DNA of 33,411 nucleotides, from the NCBI GenBank assembly GCA_902783575.1, contig CACZRP010000124.1, positions 1 to 33,411 on the forward strand, read 5' to 3'. This document shows, piece by piece, positions 6,690 through 24,063 of the stretch. A program made the position numbers and the translations under genes. The number at the start of each line of letters is the position of its first letter. Within the stretch, counting starts at the first letter, position 1. The notes under the pieces were generated by a model that was not told where the DNA came from, searched no databases, and worked only from the letters and a program-made list of their open reading frames with translations. The DNA comes from an uncultured Eubacteriales bacterium. GTDB taxonomy: Bacteria; Bacillota; Clostridia; Lachnospirales; Bianqueaceae.

Positions 6690-6932
6690 ATGACCATATT
6701 AGATCAAATCAAAAAAATCCTGGATGACCGCGGTCTTCTGGACGATATTGAACTGACCCCTGACACCAACCTGATCGAATCCGGACTGGATTCCCTGGAT
6801 CTTGCCGATCTCGCCATGGATTGCGAAGACACCTTTGATATTGAGATTGATCTTGATTCCGCACCTCAGACCGTAGGTGAGCTGATTGCCATCATCAAAG
6901 AAAAAACCGGCATCGAGGACGAAGATGAATAA
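6690..6932 (+). CDS. acpP: Acyl carrier protein
   Basis: An 80-residue, strongly acidic four-helix carrier protein. The phosphopantetheine attachment site is Ser35 in GLDSLDLADL. A GAGGAGG ribosome site lies 6 bp upstream. It carries acyl chains as thioesters in the cytoplasm. It is not beside fab genes here but upstream of, and overlapping, a GH3 lipoprotein gene, so it may be a second ACP rather than the main fatty-acid one. The two genes overlap by 8 bases. Confidence 0.9.
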   Translation: MTILDQIKKILDDRGLLDDIELTPDTNLIESGLDSLDLADLAMDCEDTFDIEIDLDSAPQTVGELIAIIKEKTGIEDEDE

Positions 6933-8385
6933 TCAAAAAAACTCCACCGGCCGCCTCTGGCCGGTGGTTATTTTTTGTATCCTGTCGCTTTTATTAGTCA
7001 GCTGCAAGACGGCTTCTCCTGCAGGAGATTCAGCCGTAAATTCGACCGGGGCACCTGCCGGAGAAAGCAGCGCGGCCCAGGAGGCATCTGCCGAAACGCC
7101 CGCCGAGGCATCTGCTGAGGAATCCGCAGCGCAATCTGCTGATACATCCGCAGCCGCGGAAAGCCAGAATGGCGGTTCAGAGTCTGCTGACGCCCAGGCC
7201 GGCGAGAGCGCTGAAGCCCAAGGCACCGAATCCCAGTCCTCCAATGCCTCCTCCGAGGCTGCCGAAGCTGAATCCCAGCCCGAGCCCGAGGTCTACGGCT
7301 ATGGCCTCTTTGGCGGCAACCCCTACGAGGGCGGCGGCCTGGCGGCCATCACCCCCGAGCAGGAGGCGGCCATCCGCCAGATGATTTCTGAAATGACCCT
7401 GGAAGAAAAGGTGGGCCAGATGTTCTTCGCCCGCTTCCCGGGCGGCACCGCCGATCCCTACAGTCCTGCCCAGGCCCAGGCCGTGGTGGACCAGTTCCAT
7501 GTGGGCGGCTTTGTACTTTTTAAAGAAGACTTTAACGTGGACTCTGACACGGCCATCATTGACAAGCTGGATGCCGTGCAGGCTTCCTCCGATATTCCGC
7601 TCCTCATGGCGGTGGATGAAGAGGGCGGCTACGTGAACCGGGTCAGCCCCTATTTCCGTGACAGCGAATTCCTCTCCCCCAGAAATGCCTATGCCTGGGG
7701 CGGCGAGGGCGTGCTGATGTCCGAGATCTACGAGCGCTGCGAGCTCCTGGGAGATCTGCATCTGAACATGAACCTTTATCCGGTATGCGATCTTTCCGAC
7801 AATCCGGAAGATTTCATCTATAACCGCGCCTTCAGCGGTGATCCCGATACGGCCGCGGACTACATCGCCGAGGTCGTCAAGTTGATGCAGGGCTACCATA
7901 TGGCCTGCAGCCTCAAGCATTTCCCGGGCTACGGCAACAACGTGGATACTCATACGGGCATTGCCGTGGACGAGCGGGATCGGGAGACTTTCTACGCCCA
8001 GGATTTCAGGCCCTTCGCGGCGGGCATCGCTCAGGGCGCCCAGACCGTGATGGTGAGCCACAATATCGTCAAGGCCTTTGACGCGGAGTTTCCGGCTTCT
8101 CTATCCCCCGAGATGCATCGAGTGCTGCGGGAGGATCTGGGCTTTGAGGGTGTCATCGTCACCGATGATCTGGGCATGGGCGCCGTGGCGGAATACACCG
8201 ACGGCCGCGTGGCGGTGCAGGCGGTCATCGCCGGCAATGACCTGCTGATCACCAAGGAGTACGAAACCCAGTACCAGGAAGTCCTGACCGCTGTCAATGA
8301 CGGCGTGATTACGGAACAGCGCATCGAGGAATCGGTCTACCGCATTCTCCGGATGAAGGTTTCCATGGGTCTTCTGAAACTGTAA
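6925..8385 (+). CDS. GH3 family beta-N-acetylhexosaminidase-like lipoprotein
   Basis: The start at 6925 gives a lipoprotein signal with the lipobox LLVSC (Cys27). Residues about 28-140 are a low-complexity Ala/Ser/Glu linker. Residues about 150-486 are a GH3 domain with the NagZ signature KHFPGYGNNVDTH (331-343), supplying the Asp-His acid/base dyad, and VTDDLGM with nucleophile Asp414. It is expected to trim N-acetylglucosamine from peptidoglycan fragments or glycans outside the membrane. The start overlaps the end of the acyl carrier protein gene, which implies translational coupling. GH3 beta-glucosidase activity is less likely given the KHFPG-D-H motif. Confidence 0.85.
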   Translation: MNNQKNSTGRLWPVVIFCILSLLLVSCKTASPAGDSAVNSTGAPAGESSAAQEASAETPAEASAEESAAQSADTSAAAESQNGGSESADAQAGESAEAQGTESQSSNASSEAAEAESQPEPEVYGYGLFGGNPYEGGGLAAITPEQEAAIRQMISEMTLEEKVGQMFFARFPGGTADPYSPAQAQAVVDQFHVGGFVLFKEDFNVDSDTAIIDKLDAVQASSDIPLLMAVDEEGGYVNRVSPYFRDSEFLSPRNAYAWGGEGVLMSEIYERCELLGDLHLNMNLYPVCDLSDNPEDFIYNRAFSGDPDTAADYIAEVVKLMQGYHMACSLKHFPGYGNNVDTHTGIAVDERDRETFYAQDFRPFAAGIAQGAQTVMVSHNIVKAFDAEFPASLSPEMHRVLREDLGFEGVIVTDDLGMGAVAEYTDGRVAVQAVIAGNDLLITKEYETQYQEVLTAVNDGVITEQRIEESVYRILRMKVSMGLLKL

Positions 8386-8463: not shown

Positions 8464-8573
8464 ATTATTGTGCGAAGGTTTCCAGATATTCTTTGTAAGG
8501 ACAGGTTTCAAAGAAACCCAAAGGGTGATTAAGCCAGGCAAAGGATACTTGTGCCGCTGGTTATGCGGCCACG

Positions 8574-9174
8574 GTTTCACACATTTCGTGTTTTCCTATG
8601 ATCTTGTGAAAATCCTTTTGATAAGATTTTGCTGAGTTTCACGGATCCTATTATAACACCATTTTTGAGACAGTCGATTTTCACATGCCCTGGATCATCT
8701 CTATGTTTTGCGACAGTAATTATCGCAAATCTGTGCGATACGCCCTTTCTTGTTAAAATTTATTTTCACATTTTTAATGCTTTCCGGCGATTTTGTGACA
8801 ACCGGCTTTGGCGGGTTTCACACATCCTCCGGAAACCCTATCTTTTGTGAAACTGAGTTGTCACAGATCCGGCGTCATCACTGCATTCTGTGAAAATCTG
8901 GTTTTGACCAGTTTCACAGATTAGGCCTTGTCTCTATGTTTTGTGACAATCGGCCAATTGAGTTTCACTGGGCGCCTCAGACCTGGCTGTCTGTGACAGA
9001 ATGCTGTCACCAGAAAGACCCGTCCTAATGATTTGTGACATAAATAGCCTGAAACGCAAGGATTTTCCCTTTTTTAAGGGTTATTTTTGTCACACATCGC
9101 CTGTTCTTGACTCTCCTGTGAAAGTGTTTTGAGAAATTGTCACAGAGCATCAAATAATCCATGAATTGTGACAA
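8574..9174. repeat. Repeat array 1: twelve inverted TKTCACA/TGTGAMA pairs
   Basis: Left arms (consensus TTTCACA or TGTCACA) start at 8575, 8637, 8679, 8721, 8764, 8816, 8859, 8912, 8963, 9005, 9088 and 9138. Right arms (TGTGAAA or TGTGACA) start at 8605, 8666, 8709, 8751, 8794, 8846, 8889, 8942, 8992, 9034, 9117 and 9167. Left-to-right distance is 29 or 30 bp in all twelve units. The gap from a right arm to the next left arm is 12-13 bp (five times), 21-23 (four times), 32 and 54. The arms at 8666, 8709, 8721 and 8751 are degenerate. The sequence between arms differs in every unit. No coding frame fits. It lies between two convergent genes. Confidence 0.85.
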
Positions 9175-9213
9175 TCCGTGGGACGGCTGTCCCTGGGCTA
9201 AATTCTGAGCATA

Positions 9214-9284: not shown

Positions 9285-10541
9285 TCAGCGGATATCACCG
9301 TTTCCGGTGATGATATATTTATAGGAACAAAGCTCCCGCAGGCCCATGGGACCCCGGGCGTGCAGCTTCTGGGTGCTGATGCCCATCTCGCAGCCCAGCC
9401 CGAACTCGCCGCCATCGGTGAAGCGGGTGGAGGCGTTCACGTATACCGCCGCGCTGTCGACCCCCTCGGTAAAGGCCTGGGCCGCCGCCGGATCCTCCGT
9501 GATAATGGCCTCGCTGTGGTGGGTACTGTGCTCCCGGATATGCCGAACGGCTTCCGGCAGGGAGTCCACCACCCGGACAGCCAGGATATAATCCAGAAAT
9601 TCCGTATCGAAATCCTCGGGACCGGCCGCGGTTCCGGGGATTATTTTCTGCGCTTTTTCATCCAGCCGAAGCTCCACCGGCGCAAGGCCAGCCTTTTCCC
9701 TCTCATCAACAAGACGAGCCTTCAGCAGAGGCAGGAACTGTTCCGCCACAGCGGTATGGACCAGACAGACCTCCGCAGCGTTGCAGACGCTGGGCCGGCT
9801 GGTTTTGGCATTGTCCGCAATGGCCAGAGCCATATCAAGATTCGCAGATTGATCCACATAGAGATGGCAGATGCCGGTGCCAGTTTCAATGCAGGGCACC
9901 AGGGACTGCTCCACACAGGCCCGAATCAGCCCTGCGCCGCCCCGGGGGATCAGCAGATCCACCAGGCCACGGGCCTTCATGAGATCCAGGGAGCTCTGGC
10001 GGGTGGTGTCCTCCACCAGCTGCAGCAGCTCCGGATCCAGTCCGGCCTCCGCCAGGCCTTTCTGCATGGCTTTGACAATCTCAGCCGCGGAGCGCCAGGC
10101 TTCCTTGCCGGAACGCAGTACGCAGGCGGAGCCGGCCTTCAAAGCCAGGGCGGCCGCATCGGAGGTGACGTTGGGCCGGCTTTCATAAATAATGGCAATG
10201 ACGCCCATGGGGACGGTGACCCGCCGGATTTTCAAAGATCCGCCGTGGCCGGTGGTTTCGGAAAGAACCTCGCCCACAGGATCCGGCAGCGCCGCCACCT
10301 GGCGGATGCCCTCCGCCATGCCCTGAATGCGGCTTGCGTTCAGCATCAGGCGGTCCAGCATCACCGGGGAAATGTGAGACTTCGCGCTTTCCATGTCCTG
10401 TTGGTTGGCTTCCAGAATGGCATCCGTCGCCGCCACCAGAGCATCGGCCATTTTCAGCAGGGCCTCGTCCTTTTGATGGGTGGTGAAATGAGCCTCGGAA
10501 GAGGCAGCTTTGGCTTTTTTCAGCAGTTCGAGAGTTGTCAT
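9285..10541 (-). CDS. proA: Gamma-glutamyl phosphate reductase
   Basis: Second enzyme of proline synthesis: it reduces glutamyl 5-phosphate to glutamate semialdehyde with NADPH. The 418 residues match the usual length. Visible features are [14 protein letters not shown] (119-132) and the catalytic Cys253 in SVCNAAE. AAGGAG lies 7 bp before the ATG. It follows proB after 33 bp, and a strong terminator follows. Confidence 0.95.
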
Positions 10542-12602: not shown

Positions 12603-12614
12603 GTGAGGATTCGA

Positions 12615-13976
12615 ATGAAAACAGAATGGCTTGTTAAAGACAGGCGTTTTTACCAGAGGCTTTTTGCTTTGGCCCTGCCCATGGCGGGGCAGAGCATCCT
12701 GACCTTCGCGGTGGGCCTGGCTGACAATATCATGGTGGGTCAGATCGGAGATCTGGCCCTTTCTGGCGTTTATATGGCCAATCAGTGGATGACGATGCTG
12801 CAGCAGTTCATCCACGGCTTTATGACGGCGGCGCTGGTAATCGCCACCCAATACTGGGGCAAGAAGGATACCAGGAGCATCAAAACCATCCTGGCCATTA
12901 CGGCCAAGTTCGCGGCGGTGACGGGGCTGCTGTTTTTCGCGGCCGCCTTCTTTTTCCCCGTCCGGCTGATGGGGCTCTACACCAACGATCCCCAGGTGGC
13001 GGCGGAAGCGGCGCGGTATATCCGCATCGTGGCGGTTTCCTATCTTTTCTATGTGGCCACTGAGCTTCTGATGACCGCCATGAAATCCGTGGAGACGGTG
13101 GGCATCGCCCTGTACACCGCCATCAGCACGCTGATCATTAATGTCGTGCTGAATTATCTCCTGATTTTCGGCAAGCTGGGCTTCCCGGCCATGGGCGTCG
13201 CCGGCGCCGCCGTGGCCACTCTCGCGGCCCGCATTGTGGAAACCGGCATCATGATTTATTATGTCAAATTCCGGGATCATAAGCTGAATCTCCGCCTGGC
13301 GGACCTGGCGCTGCACTCCCGGACCCTGCTGAAGGACTATATCAGGTATGGCATACCGGTCTTCGCCGGGGCCGCCGTCTGGGGCATCAACATGACGGGT
13401 CAGGGCGCCATCGTGGGCCGTCTCGGCCAGAGCGCTATTTCGGCCATCAGTATCTCCAACAATATGTTCCAGATCGTATCCGTGGGCGTCTATGGCGTGG
13501 CCAGCGCCACAGCTATAATTATAGGAAAAACCGTGGGCAGCGGAGACTACGAGCTGGTGAAAAAATACGCGAAAACTCTGCAGCTGGTGTTTGTGGCCAT
13601 GGGCCTGGGCACCGCTGTGCTGATGTATGCCAGCCACTGGCTGATCCCCCTCATGTATCCGTCCATCGAGCCGGAAACACGGGTCATCGTGAACCAGCTG
13701 CTCCTGGTGCTGACGGTGATGGTCATCGGTACCGCCTACCAGATGTCCTCCCTGACGGGCATCGTCCGGGCCGGCGGCCTGACCCACTTTGTCTTTGTCA
13801 ATGATACGATTTTTGTCTGCCTGGTGGTGCTGCCCCTGGGCTTCCTTTCCGCTTTTGTCTTCCATGCTCCCGTATGGGTGGTCTTCGCCTGCCTGAAATG
13901 CGACCAGATCCTCAAATGCTTCGTGGCCCTGGTGAAGGTGAACCGGTTTAAGTGGATTAAGAATATTACCAGGTAG
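12615..13976 (+). CDS. MATE family efflux transporter
   Basis: A 453-residue protein with about twelve membrane segments in two related halves, of the DinF/NorM superfamily. Typical features are PMAGQSILTF in the first segment, the ADNIMVG motif just after, and a second-half GIPVFAGAAVWG. It exports cationic drugs or metabolites by Na+ or H+ antiport. The ATG at 12615 has GAGGA 5 bp upstream; an earlier GTG in frame would overlap that site. The substrate cannot be assigned. Repeat array 2 begins 13 bp after the stop. Confidence 0.9.
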   Translation: MKTEWLVKDRRFYQRLFALALPMAGQSILTFAVGLADNIMVGQIGDLALSGVYMANQWMTMLQQFIHGFMTAALVIATQYWGKKDTRSIKTILAITAKFAAVTGLLFFAAAFFFPVRLMGLYTNDPQVAAEAARYIRIVAVSYLFYVATELLMTAMKSVETVGIALYTAISTLIINVVLNYLLIFGKLGFPAMGVAGAAVATLAARIVETGIMIYYVKFRDHKLNLRLADLALHSRTLLKDYIRYGIPVFAGAAVWGINMTGQGAIVGRLGQSAISAISISNNMFQIVSVGVYGVASATAIIIGKTVGSGDYELVKKYAKTLQLVFVAMGLGTAVLMYASHWLIPLMYPSIEPETRVIVNQLLLVLTVMVIGTAYQMSSLTGIVRAGGLTHFVFVNDTIFVCLVVLPLGFLSAFVFHAPVWVVFACLKCDQILKCFVALVKVNRFKWIKNITR

Positions 13977-13988
13977 ATGGATGGTGGT

Positions 13989-14363
13989 GACTTCCTACCC
14001 AGCCGCCCAGCGCGAGTAGGAAGTTTGCAGGCAAATGACCTGACTTCCTACCCAGCCGACCTACGCGAGTAGGAAGTCCATAGTTTTTGACACACTCTTC
14101 CTACTTCCTGGTAGGAAGTATTACTGTATTTCTGATCAGTTCCTACCATAAAACTTTTTTGAGAGCGCTGGGCGGTAGGAAGTCTATGTTTTTTCCAACA
14201 CTTTTCCTATTCAGCGGTAGGAAGATCGTTCCAATTCCAGCTCACTTCCTACCATCAAAAACTTGTTGGGTAGGAAGTTCACAGCTTTTGAGGCCTATTT
14301 CCTACCATGAAGTAGGAAGTATTGCCGTCTCCTTGATTTCTTCCTACCGCAAATTTGTAGGCA
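13989..14363. repeat. Repeat array 2: phased inverted GTAGGAA/TTCCTAC pairs
   Basis: TTCCTAC arms start at 13992, 14045, 14098, 14140, 14204 (TTCCTAT), 14246, 14299 and 14341. GTAGGAA arms start at 14016, 14069, 14111, 14175, 14217, 14270, 14312 and 14357 (GTAGGCA). From each GTAGGAA to the next TTCCTAC the distance is exactly 29 bp, seven times out of seven. The opposite distances are 24, 24, 13, 35, 13, 24, 13 and 16. Apart from the degenerate last one, these are 13 plus a multiple of 11. The 18-22 bases inside each 29-bp unit are all different. Only the first two linkers are near-duplicates. Confidence 0.9.
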
Positions 14364-14736
14364 ATCCCCTGCGGGGACTCCCCTACGGGGAGGAGAAGTG
14401 TTTAAAAAAGGCATGGGTGCCTCCCCTGCGAGGAGGAGAAGTGTTCAAAAAAGACATGGGTGCCTCCCCTGCGGGGAGGAGAAGTGTTCAAAAAAGGCAT
14501 GAGTGCCTCCCCTGCGGGGAGGAGAAGTGTTCAAAAAAGGCATGGGTGCCTCCCCTGCGGGGAGGAGAAGTGCTCCAAATTGACATAGTCTCCTCCCCCA
14601 TGGGGAGTCAGATCCCAGAAAATAGACATGATCTCCTCCCTGGTGGGGAGTCAGATCCCAGAAAATAGACATAATCTCCTCCCTAATGGGGAGGCAGTTG
14701 CCAGAAATATGGACAGTTCTCCTCCCTCGCAATGAG
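14364..14736. repeat. Repeat array 3: 43-bp tandem repeats with CTCCCC/GGGGAG palindrome
   Basis: CTCCCC (later CTCCCT) starts at 14378, 14421, 14464, 14507, 14550, 14593, 14636, 14679 and 14722, a period of exactly 43 bp. GGGGAG or a variant follows 9 bp later in each, making a compact palindrome with a 3-base centre. The 28-base spacers of copies 1-4 are almost identical (beginning GAGAAGTGTT). Copy 5 begins the same way and then diverges. Copies 6 and 7 share another spacer (beginning TCAGATCCCAG), and copy 8 differs again. A partial unit TCCCC/GGGGA at 14365-14377 joins the array to array 2 without a gap. Confidence 0.9.
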
Positions 14737-14910: not shown

Positions 14911-16092
14911 ATGTCTGAATTCGAAAACAAACCTGATATGATGGAGACCGCCGCTGATGCTGCTGAAGCCGCCGCGGAAACTGCCGCCGAAGCCGCCGCG
15001 GAAACTGCTGCCGAAGCTGTCGCGGAGACCGCCGCTGAAGCTGCCGCAGAGGTTGCCGCGGAGACCGCCGTTGAAGCACCGTCTCTGGATGATGTTACTG
15101 GACAGGCTGTGAACTTTGTGCTGAACACGGATAATTATGCTTCTGAATATCTGAAGGAAACGATGCCTGAGGCGGTGCCCGAACCCGCACCCCAGCCGCA
15201 GGCTGTGCCGCAGCCGGCGCCTCAGCCCGCACAGGCCTTCCAGCCCCAGCCGCAGCCAATTCCCCAGCCTCAGCAGTTCACTCAGCCTAAGCCGGCGCCT
15301 CAGCCTGCACCTCAGCCCTGCTCAACTATGAATGACTATCAACAGATGAACGCCCAGAGGGCGGCTCAGATGAATCAGCAGTTCCAGCAGTATCAGCAGC
15401 AGAGTGCGCAGAGAGCTGCGCAAATGAATCCTCAGGCTGCTGGTGGAAATACCTATTCCCAGGCTGGAACATATACCGCACCTCAGCCTGGTCCCGCGGC
15501 ACAGAATCCCGGCCCCGGCGTGGCAGGAGGATTTGCCACCGGATATACCGGAGGAGCGGATCAGAACTGGGAAAATAATGGAACCTTTGCCCGCTATCAG
15601 GCAGGCGGCCCCGGCAATGAGCCCCAAGGCGGTTCACCCTATGGCCAGCCCACCGGACAGGGCTATCAGGCAGCCGGAGCTCAGGGTTATCAGCCGAACC
15701 AGCAGAGCTATCAGGCCGGTCCTCAGAACTACCAGGCTGGTCCCCAGGGATTCCAGACTGGCAACCCCGGCTATCAGAACTATTCTCAGCCTGCGCCCGC
15801 CAGCGAAGATCCCGGCTATACCATGTCCATCATCTCCATGATTTGTGGTATCGTCAGCTGCGTTCTGTTCTGGGGAAGAATCGGCGGATTCCTGTCCATT
15901 CTGTGCGGTGCCGCCGCGATAGTGCTGGGCGTTATGTCCGGTAAGAAATCACTGACCGGTGCACGCAACGGCATGGCTACTGCGGGTCTTATTACCGGTA
16001 TTATCGGTATCTCCCTTTCCATTATCAGTATCGCCTGCTGGACCTGCGTCTGCGCGTCCCTTTCCAGCGAATTCATGAGCGAATTCTTCTGA
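14911..16092 (+). CDS. DUF4190-like membrane protein with long low-complexity N-terminus
   Basis: The 393-residue protein has three zones. Residues about 11-57 are an Ala/Glu repeat (AAETAAEA-type), likely one long helix. Residues about 85-300 are rich in Gln, Pro, Gly and Tyr, with repeats of GYQ/NYQAGPQ. Residues about 305-393 hold two or three membrane segments with the DUF4190 pattern of a short Gly-rich hairpin (SILCGAAAIVLGVMSGKK). The function of the family is unknown. A GGAG site precedes the ATG. The next gene starts 1 bp after its stop, so translation is probably coupled. Confidence 0.8.
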   Translation: MSEFENKPDMMETAADAAEAAAETAAEAAAETAAEAVAETAAEAAAEVAAETAVEAPSLDDVTGQAVNFVLNTDNYASEYLKETMPEAVPEPAPQPQAVPQPAPQPAQAFQPQPQPIPQPQQFTQPKPAPQPAPQPCSTMNDYQQMNAQRAAQMNQQFQQYQQQSAQRAAQMNPQAAGGNTYSQAGTYTAPQPGPAAQNPGPGVAGGFATGYTGGADQNWENNGTFARYQAGGPGNEPQGGSPYGQPTGQGYQAAGAQGYQPNQQSYQAGPQNYQAGPQGFQTGNPGYQNYSQPAPASEDPGYTMSIISMICGIVSCVLFWGRIGGFLSILCGAAAIVLGVMSGKKSLTGARNGMATAGLITGIIGISLSIISIACWTCVCASLSSEFMSEFF

Positions 16093-18865: not shown

Positions 18866-18939
18866 TCGGAATGACAGGATTTGAACCTGCGGCCTCTGCG
18901 TCCCGAACGCAGCGCTCTACCAAACTGAGCCACATTCCG
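18866..18939 (-). tRNA. tRNA-Pro(CGG)
   Basis: On the minus strand the acceptor CGGAATG pairs with CATTCCG and the discriminator is A. The D-arm is CTCAGTTTGGTAGAGC, the anticodon loop TTCGGGA (anticodon CGG) sits between CTGCG and CGCAG, and the T-loop is TTCAAAT. All stems close. The CCA end is not encoded. Confidence 0.95.
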
Positions 18940-23914: not shown

Positions 23915-23940
23915 CGATTAGTTCTTCATTCTGAAAAAAC

Positions 23941-24036
23941 TCCCTACGCTGGTATAATCCATATCAGGTTCGAGGGTTCGGCTGCCGGACCAGCTTTTCG
24001 CTGCCGCGCACCGTCTCAGCCCTAAGGCACCCCTGT
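23941..24036 (-). promoter_or_regulatory. TPP riboswitch (THI element)
   Basis: On the minus strand the aptamer shows GGGGTGCC, then GGCTGAGAC, and the highly conserved block ACCTGATATGGATTATACC followed by AGCGTAGGGA. Both the pyrimidine- and pyrophosphate-sensor helices are present. It controls thiT through the terminator downstream. Confidence 0.97.
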
Positions 24037-24063
24037 TTTCGCCCAGAATACTGTGCACCACTC

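Follow-up and report, generated by a model that had tools for sequence, protein, structure and literature searches.

Dispersed intergenic arrays of inverted arms with helix-phased spacing in a rumen Clostridia-type genome and its relatives

The window, that is, the whole 33,411-nt stretch of DNA analyzed here, derives from a rumen Clostridia-type MAG (assembly of 2.5 Mb in 126 contigs, 86% complete). Its forward-strand gene at positions 12603 to 13976, which on the basis of sequence knowledge we take to encode a MATE-type transporter, specifies a protein with 86 to 90% identity to proteins of the MAGs RGIG2931, RGIG8018, and RGIG9267. The 3′ end of this gene abuts an array of short inverted arms, referred to here as alpha (13992 to 14348). 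Beyond it lie a second array, zeta (14376 to 14735), made of 43-bp tandem units with the inverted arms CTCCC/GGGAG, and a forward-strand gene for an Ala/Pro/Gln-rich protein (14911 to 16092). Elsewhere in the window, Rfam matches mark a TPP riboswitch (23924 to 24044) and a tRNA gene (18866 to 18939), both on the reverse strand.

The alpha array comprises a leading half unit, which is a lone closing arm (13992 to 13998), and seven 36-bp units of the form GTAGGAA-N22-TTCCTAC. A preliminary description of this DNA had reported a fixed distance of 29 bp from GTAGGAA to TTCCTAC, and this distance is indeed seen in 7/7 units, located at 14016 to 14051, 14069 to 14104 (U3, the consensus interior of which begins GTCTATAGTTTTTAGC), 14111 to 14146 (U4), 14175 to 14210 (U5, with closing arm TTCCTAT), 14217 to 14252 (U6), 14270 to 14305 (U7), and 14312 to 14347 (U8). 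This last unit is followed in other copies by a conserved right flank. Exact GTAGGAA or TTCCTAC arms occur 14 times within positions 13992 to 14348 and 16 times in the 33-kb window, as compared to 2.05 expected from shuffles, of which 0/100 reached 16. The linkers measure 24, 24, 13, 35, 13, 24, and 13 bp, with a further 16 bp to a degenerate forward-strand arm, GTAGGCA (14357 to 14363). The gap values of 13, 24, and 35, with a final 16, had therefore been read correctly in the preliminary description, except that the first two 24s arise in part from a local 53-bp tandem duplication (13988 to 14024 versus 14041 to 14077; 92% identical) within which the unit at 14016 lies.

The original observation is confirmed, and the window array belongs to a family of dispersed intergenic elements. 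The host genome contains at least seven dispersed alpha copies plus shorter remnants, and its 40 GTAGGAA/TTCCTAC pairs, found on nine contigs, have 22 bp between the arms in 39 cases and 21 bp in one. The two intact copies, on contigs C22 and C33, carry linkers of 13, 24, 13, 35, 13, 24, and 13 bp, their first linker being 13 as opposed to 24 in the window. The same order is wholly or partly present in C57, C73, C89, and the window, and C103 shows a simple alternation (13, 24, 14, 24, 13, 36). A reading of the former series as a "recursive palindrome" was rejected, as the linkers are not palindromic copies and C103 simply alternates. The unit interiors are unique within one array, as had been claimed, yet other copies repeat these interiors with their order unchanged; being conserved by position, they are not unique spacers. 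Two short forms, C63 and C68, look like internal (recombinant) deletions. Since zeta follows alpha at several other loci with the order unchanged, the two are parts of one composite element. Near the ends of some alpha copies we observed CGGCTGGT / ACCAGCCG; no clean empty site was found, and orthologous gaps differ in gene content.

When five alpha copies are compared, identity outside the arms is only 60 to 74% while the arms are 97 to 99% conserved and all 13 segment lengths are equal. Arms this well conserved in a diverged remainder do not fit a decayed transposon end, an origin that had been considered for the array. A similarity search with alpha DNA in 58 genomes matched the host genome only, and one against phages gave no match. 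Likewise, an exact-pattern scan for two linked alpha units yielded none in 84,980 species genomes and none in viral contigs; with these scans empty, the alpha arms were not found elsewhere, and the family appears to be species-restricted. Contigs C22, C41, C59, and C103 begin near arrays, which suggests that arrays break short-read assembly and are probably undercounted.

De novo scanning for clusters of inverted 7-mers, covering approximately 1.2 Mb in a first pass and 0.5 Mb of held-out sequence from partially read genomes, turned up some ten array families whose arms are unrelated to one another; they stem from this species and from other members of its genus and family. Mononucleotide-shuffled sequence gave no array, and block-shuffled sequence gave one. 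Those of the host genome are alpha, beta, gamma, delta, epsilon, and zeta. In beta (arms TCGAGGA), segments of 22, 14, 22, 15, 22, 27, 22, 36, 22, 26, and 22 bp follow one another; all 11 lengths are equal in four full copies with a non-arm identity of 53 to 90%, and a fifth, shorter copy has one linker off by one base. Gamma is represented in the window itself (8575 to 9176; arms TGTGACA/TGTCACA plus TGTGAAA variants), with units of 29 to 30 bp and linkers of 13, 21 to 23, and 54 bp, between genes at 6886 to 8385 (forward) and 9285 to 10541 (reverse); further copies are found at loci L158, L169, and L176. Delta (arms TTGGTGC) has a spacing of 32/10/21 and epsilon (arms TTGTACACAA) one of 31-32/53. 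Beside gamma and delta arrays there is also a long inverted repeat with the ends CCTTTGTTTGGCTTAAT / ATTAAGCCAAACAAAGG (L076, 6296 to 6437; window, 8519 to 8550; L158, after 16600), which looks like a separate MITE-like element.

In the congener G002, the scan detected eta (arms TAGCAAG, 30 with 13/23), with an ectB-like gene standing between the MATE ortholog and the array, and lambda (arms GGAGATA), with 29-bp units. The linkers of lambda (22, 34, 44, 34; L137, 13411 to 13696) and of a beta array of the host genome (22, 34, 43, 33; L161, 3840 to 4173) form the same skeleton with different arms; homology outside the arms is weak (0.31 to 0.41 identity, p <0.0005 to 0.17), so that common descent of the two is only suggested. 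Another inverted array of G002, TTTTTCAAAA with ACGCG (L049, 5670 to 6010; L122, 16600 to 16950; L151, 6940 to 7260), lies near the G002 ortholog of the gene for the Pro/Gln-rich protein of the window. Theta (arms GCGTATA), iota, kappa, and others come from G010 and G014, which represent another genus of the family. G010 carries very long theta arrays (L218, 13074 to 14186; L219, 14145 to 15016; L196, 41 to 640) with closing-to-opening gaps mostly of 42 to 43 bp and opening-to-closing distances of 30, 41 to 42, 62, or 92 bp, and G014 has, after an elongation-factor-P-like gene, an array (L228, 3689 to 3963) with CAGCGTA arms at distances of 14, 37, 34, and 52 bp.

Pooled over families, the distances between arms of the same orientation cluster at 42-43, 50-53, 62-64, 72-73, 82, and 104 bp. 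For ten families, the best zero-phase period is 10.45 bp (p ≤5e-6 at 10.4 to 10.5 bp), with spacings that are not fully independent, given that families may share ancestry; when lambda and eta are left out, p is still near 5e-6 at 10.4 to 10.5 bp. Within families the best period is 10.55 bp, and an automatic, unselected version that keeps false arrays returns 10.50 bp (p = 5e-4 over all periods from 8 to 14). Held-out sequence fetched afterwards gave 10.45 bp again (p = 0.015, n = 12). The spacing period is the B-DNA repeat and not the 11 of the A form, with beta steps of 12 and 9.5 bp and gamma steps of 8 to 10 bp corresponding to one turn only approximately. For the 11-bp linker step originally proposed, this means that a single array, offering just two differences, could not carry the point, that the step is convincing once families are pooled, and that its fitted size is about 10.5 bp instead of 11. 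The proposed helical phasing itself is upheld by the comb in arrays of the host genome and its relatives (best period 10.45 to 10.5 bp), which rejects evenly spread gap lengths. In a global histogram of inverted 7-mer spacings, 29 is the top peak in the host genome (123 versus a mean of 51) and not in the relatives.

Neutral intergenic DNA at such divergence is expected to have acquired several indels. The exact length of every segment, long linkers included, is a prediction of a constraint on DNA geometry, and a spacing preserved to the base pair where the sequence is not, together with one 10.45-bp rule for unrelated arm families, speaks for double-stranded DNA carrying a scaffold of protein. 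In addition, five families with unrelated arms have a common AT profile when read from the unit center (mean r 0.38, p = 0.0004), which is AT-rich at the center, GC-rich 3 to 5 bp out, and again AT-rich some 9 to 10 bp out, a pattern that would resemble bent DNA whose minor grooves face inward at intervals of one turn.

Arrays prefer the gaps between convergent genes. Among 18 distinct array-bearing gaps with both neighbors called, using a home-made codon-usage caller, 11 are convergent as opposed to 7/47 other gaps of >200 bp (p = 0.0004), and just one is divergent as opposed to 16/47 (p = 0.016); of the arrays discovered later, the four with a gene called on either side all lie in convergent gaps. 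In the window, the gamma array sits in a convergent gap and the alpha array in a tandem one. Judging by sequence, the genes nearest to arrays look like transporters and enzymes, with a few HTH-type proteins. No transposase is apparent among them, nor any of the four Y1_Tnp genes of the host genome, and the RAYT-like one of these (L074) has no repeats beside it in this 86% complete assembly. A RAYT link was rejected for this reason, Y1_Tnp genes being present yet not beside arrays, and we do not regard the arrays as REP/RAYT elements.

As dispersed intergenic inverted units of alternating orientation, the arrays resemble the BIME/REP (PU) clusters of Enterobacteria and Pseudomonas. REPs mostly lie between convergent or co-directional genes (PMC3733652), as do the intergenic arrays described here. 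REP hairpins carry a GTAG or CGTC tag at one end, and REP sub-families differ by alternative complementary stem residues (PMC3733652). In contrast, each alpha unit is bounded by GTAG/CTAC on both sides, and its arm starts with GTAG by chance. The arms of beta, gamma, delta, eta, lambda, and theta are devoid of either tag, arm variation is not compensatory, the spacing is tied to the turns of the DNA helix, and arrays in the 86% complete genome have no RAYT beside them. Nowhere does the REP survey (PMC3733652) use the word Firmicutes. With REPIN/RAYT (TnpA-REP) systems the arrays share short inverted pairs in many dispersed copies, but differ in that none of the Y1_Tnp genes is among the genes nearest to an array. 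Tn7 ends, resolvase res sites, and iteron centromeres bring protein sites at whole-turn spacing into one nucleoprotein complex. Our arrays likewise present multiple whole-turn-spaced, here putative, protein sites; unlike such phased operator or transposase-site arrays, they have no linked gene for the protein, occur in many dispersed copies, and apply one geometry to several arm sequences that are unrelated. A literature search on phased intergenic arrays found nothing similar.

Arrays at gene 3′ ends, very stable predicted folds, and the GC-rich short-loop hairpins of the zeta part might all reflect a structured RNA, in which the two convergent transcripts each carry arm hairpins in the 3′ UTR that serve as bidirectional terminator or mRNA stabilizer. 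The predicted folds of single RNAs are indeed much more stable than those of shuffles (z −7 to −10); low folding energies, however, are a consequence of inverted arms in any such array and prove nothing. Arm deviations are compensated at 3/45 unit-partner and 2/44 linker-partner positions. In the arms of alpha, beta, and lambda, 11 of 23 changes abolish pairing on both strands when G-U is counted as a pair. Considering all arm positions, unit partners match at 0.946 versus 0.939 for permuted pairs (p = 0.03) and linker partners no more than permuted pairs (p = 0.56), and the positions flanking the arms lack excess complementarity. Because arm mutations are almost never compensated, base pairing is not the conserved property. 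Loop and linker lengths that are exact despite diverged sequence, a period of 10.45 to 10.55 bp in place of the 11 of A-form RNA, and the lack of a match between the arrays and any known Rfam family further argue against an RNA-level role, which we consider improbable.

Our main rival explanation, somewhat less improbable than the RNA but still unlikely, is a selfish MITE- or REP-like element without host function, the phased sites of which would bind a copying transposase or recombinase and the convergent location of which would reflect harmless insertion. Dispersed copies with a shared order, the recombinant deletion forms C63 and C68, the restriction of alpha to one species, the avoidance of divergent (promoter) gaps, and the four Y1_Tnp genes all agree with this proposal. 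It is weakened by the lack of an apparent transposase among the genes nearest to arrays and by arms and spacing conserved in copies elsewhere only ∼53% identical, which indicates that old copies are still under constraint; a terminal target duplication could not be demonstrated, as orthologous gaps differ in gene content. Selfish origin is compatible with a protein scaffold, and the two are not exclusive. Inverted half-sites separated by about one turn and about three turns recall operators, and with HTH-type proteins seemingly encoded by a few nearby genes, one could envisage an operator with multiple sites at which ordinary regulators control the neighboring genes; arrays at 3′ ends that avoid divergent promoter gaps, many copies adjoining unrelated genes, and one geometry common to several unrelated arm families make this very improbable. 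As for the CRISPR-like memory array hinted at in the preliminary description, fixed 36-bp units with regular, fixed-length, non-identical interiors are indeed reminiscent of one. However, there is no long direct repeat, only 7- to 9-bp arms in alternating orientation, dispersed copies inherit the same interiors in order, the AT profile is common across families, and neither phages nor viral contigs yielded a match, so that we give this idea next to no credence.

We therefore return to the phased protein scaffold and consider it probable that the arrays act at the DNA level as scaffolds, made of phased sites for a dimeric protein, with a BIME-like job at the ends of transcription units. Dispersal, exact spacing, helical comb, non-compensation, AT profile, and convergent location were computed here; the binding of a protein, its dimeric state, its oligomerization, and the job of the array we infer. 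The dispersed intergenic element would be built of inverted 7- to 9-bp protein half-sites. A dimeric sequence-specific protein would bind each unit at its two arms, 29 bp apart, and bend the AT-patterned 22-bp interior. With linkers differing by whole helical turns, all units would come to lie on the same face of the DNA, such that the dimers could stack and form a single complex, or a wrapped particle, over 300 to 400 bp. Its likeliest job would be architectural, as for the BIMEs of E. coli: at the point where two transcription units run into each other, it would serve as insulator, as roadblock, or as topological sink. The several families of a genome might then be read by one type of protein in versions that differ in specificity and have the geometry in common. 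The earlier proposal that a protein reads the array is thus backed as regards reading site by site, by the exact conservation of spacing and the uncompensated arm changes; that the bound protein forms an oligomer or filament may be supposed.

A bolder proposal, to which we give slightly less than even chances, is that these arrays constitute a class of bacterial chromosome element not described before, in which the geometry is conserved and the sequence can be swapped. On them, a fast-changing type of DNA-binding protein would assemble a helix-phased nucleoprotein particle at convergent gene ends, with arms replaced array-wide between families and species and the spacing kept. The usual account of intergenic repeat arrays invokes RNA hairpins or transposon debris. 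If our reading is true, the arrays would provide a sequence-readable map of nucleoprotein structure at transcription-unit ends in the little-studied rumen Clostridia, the binding protein would be findable through its co-variation with the arms, and one could test why such repeats gather between convergent genes.
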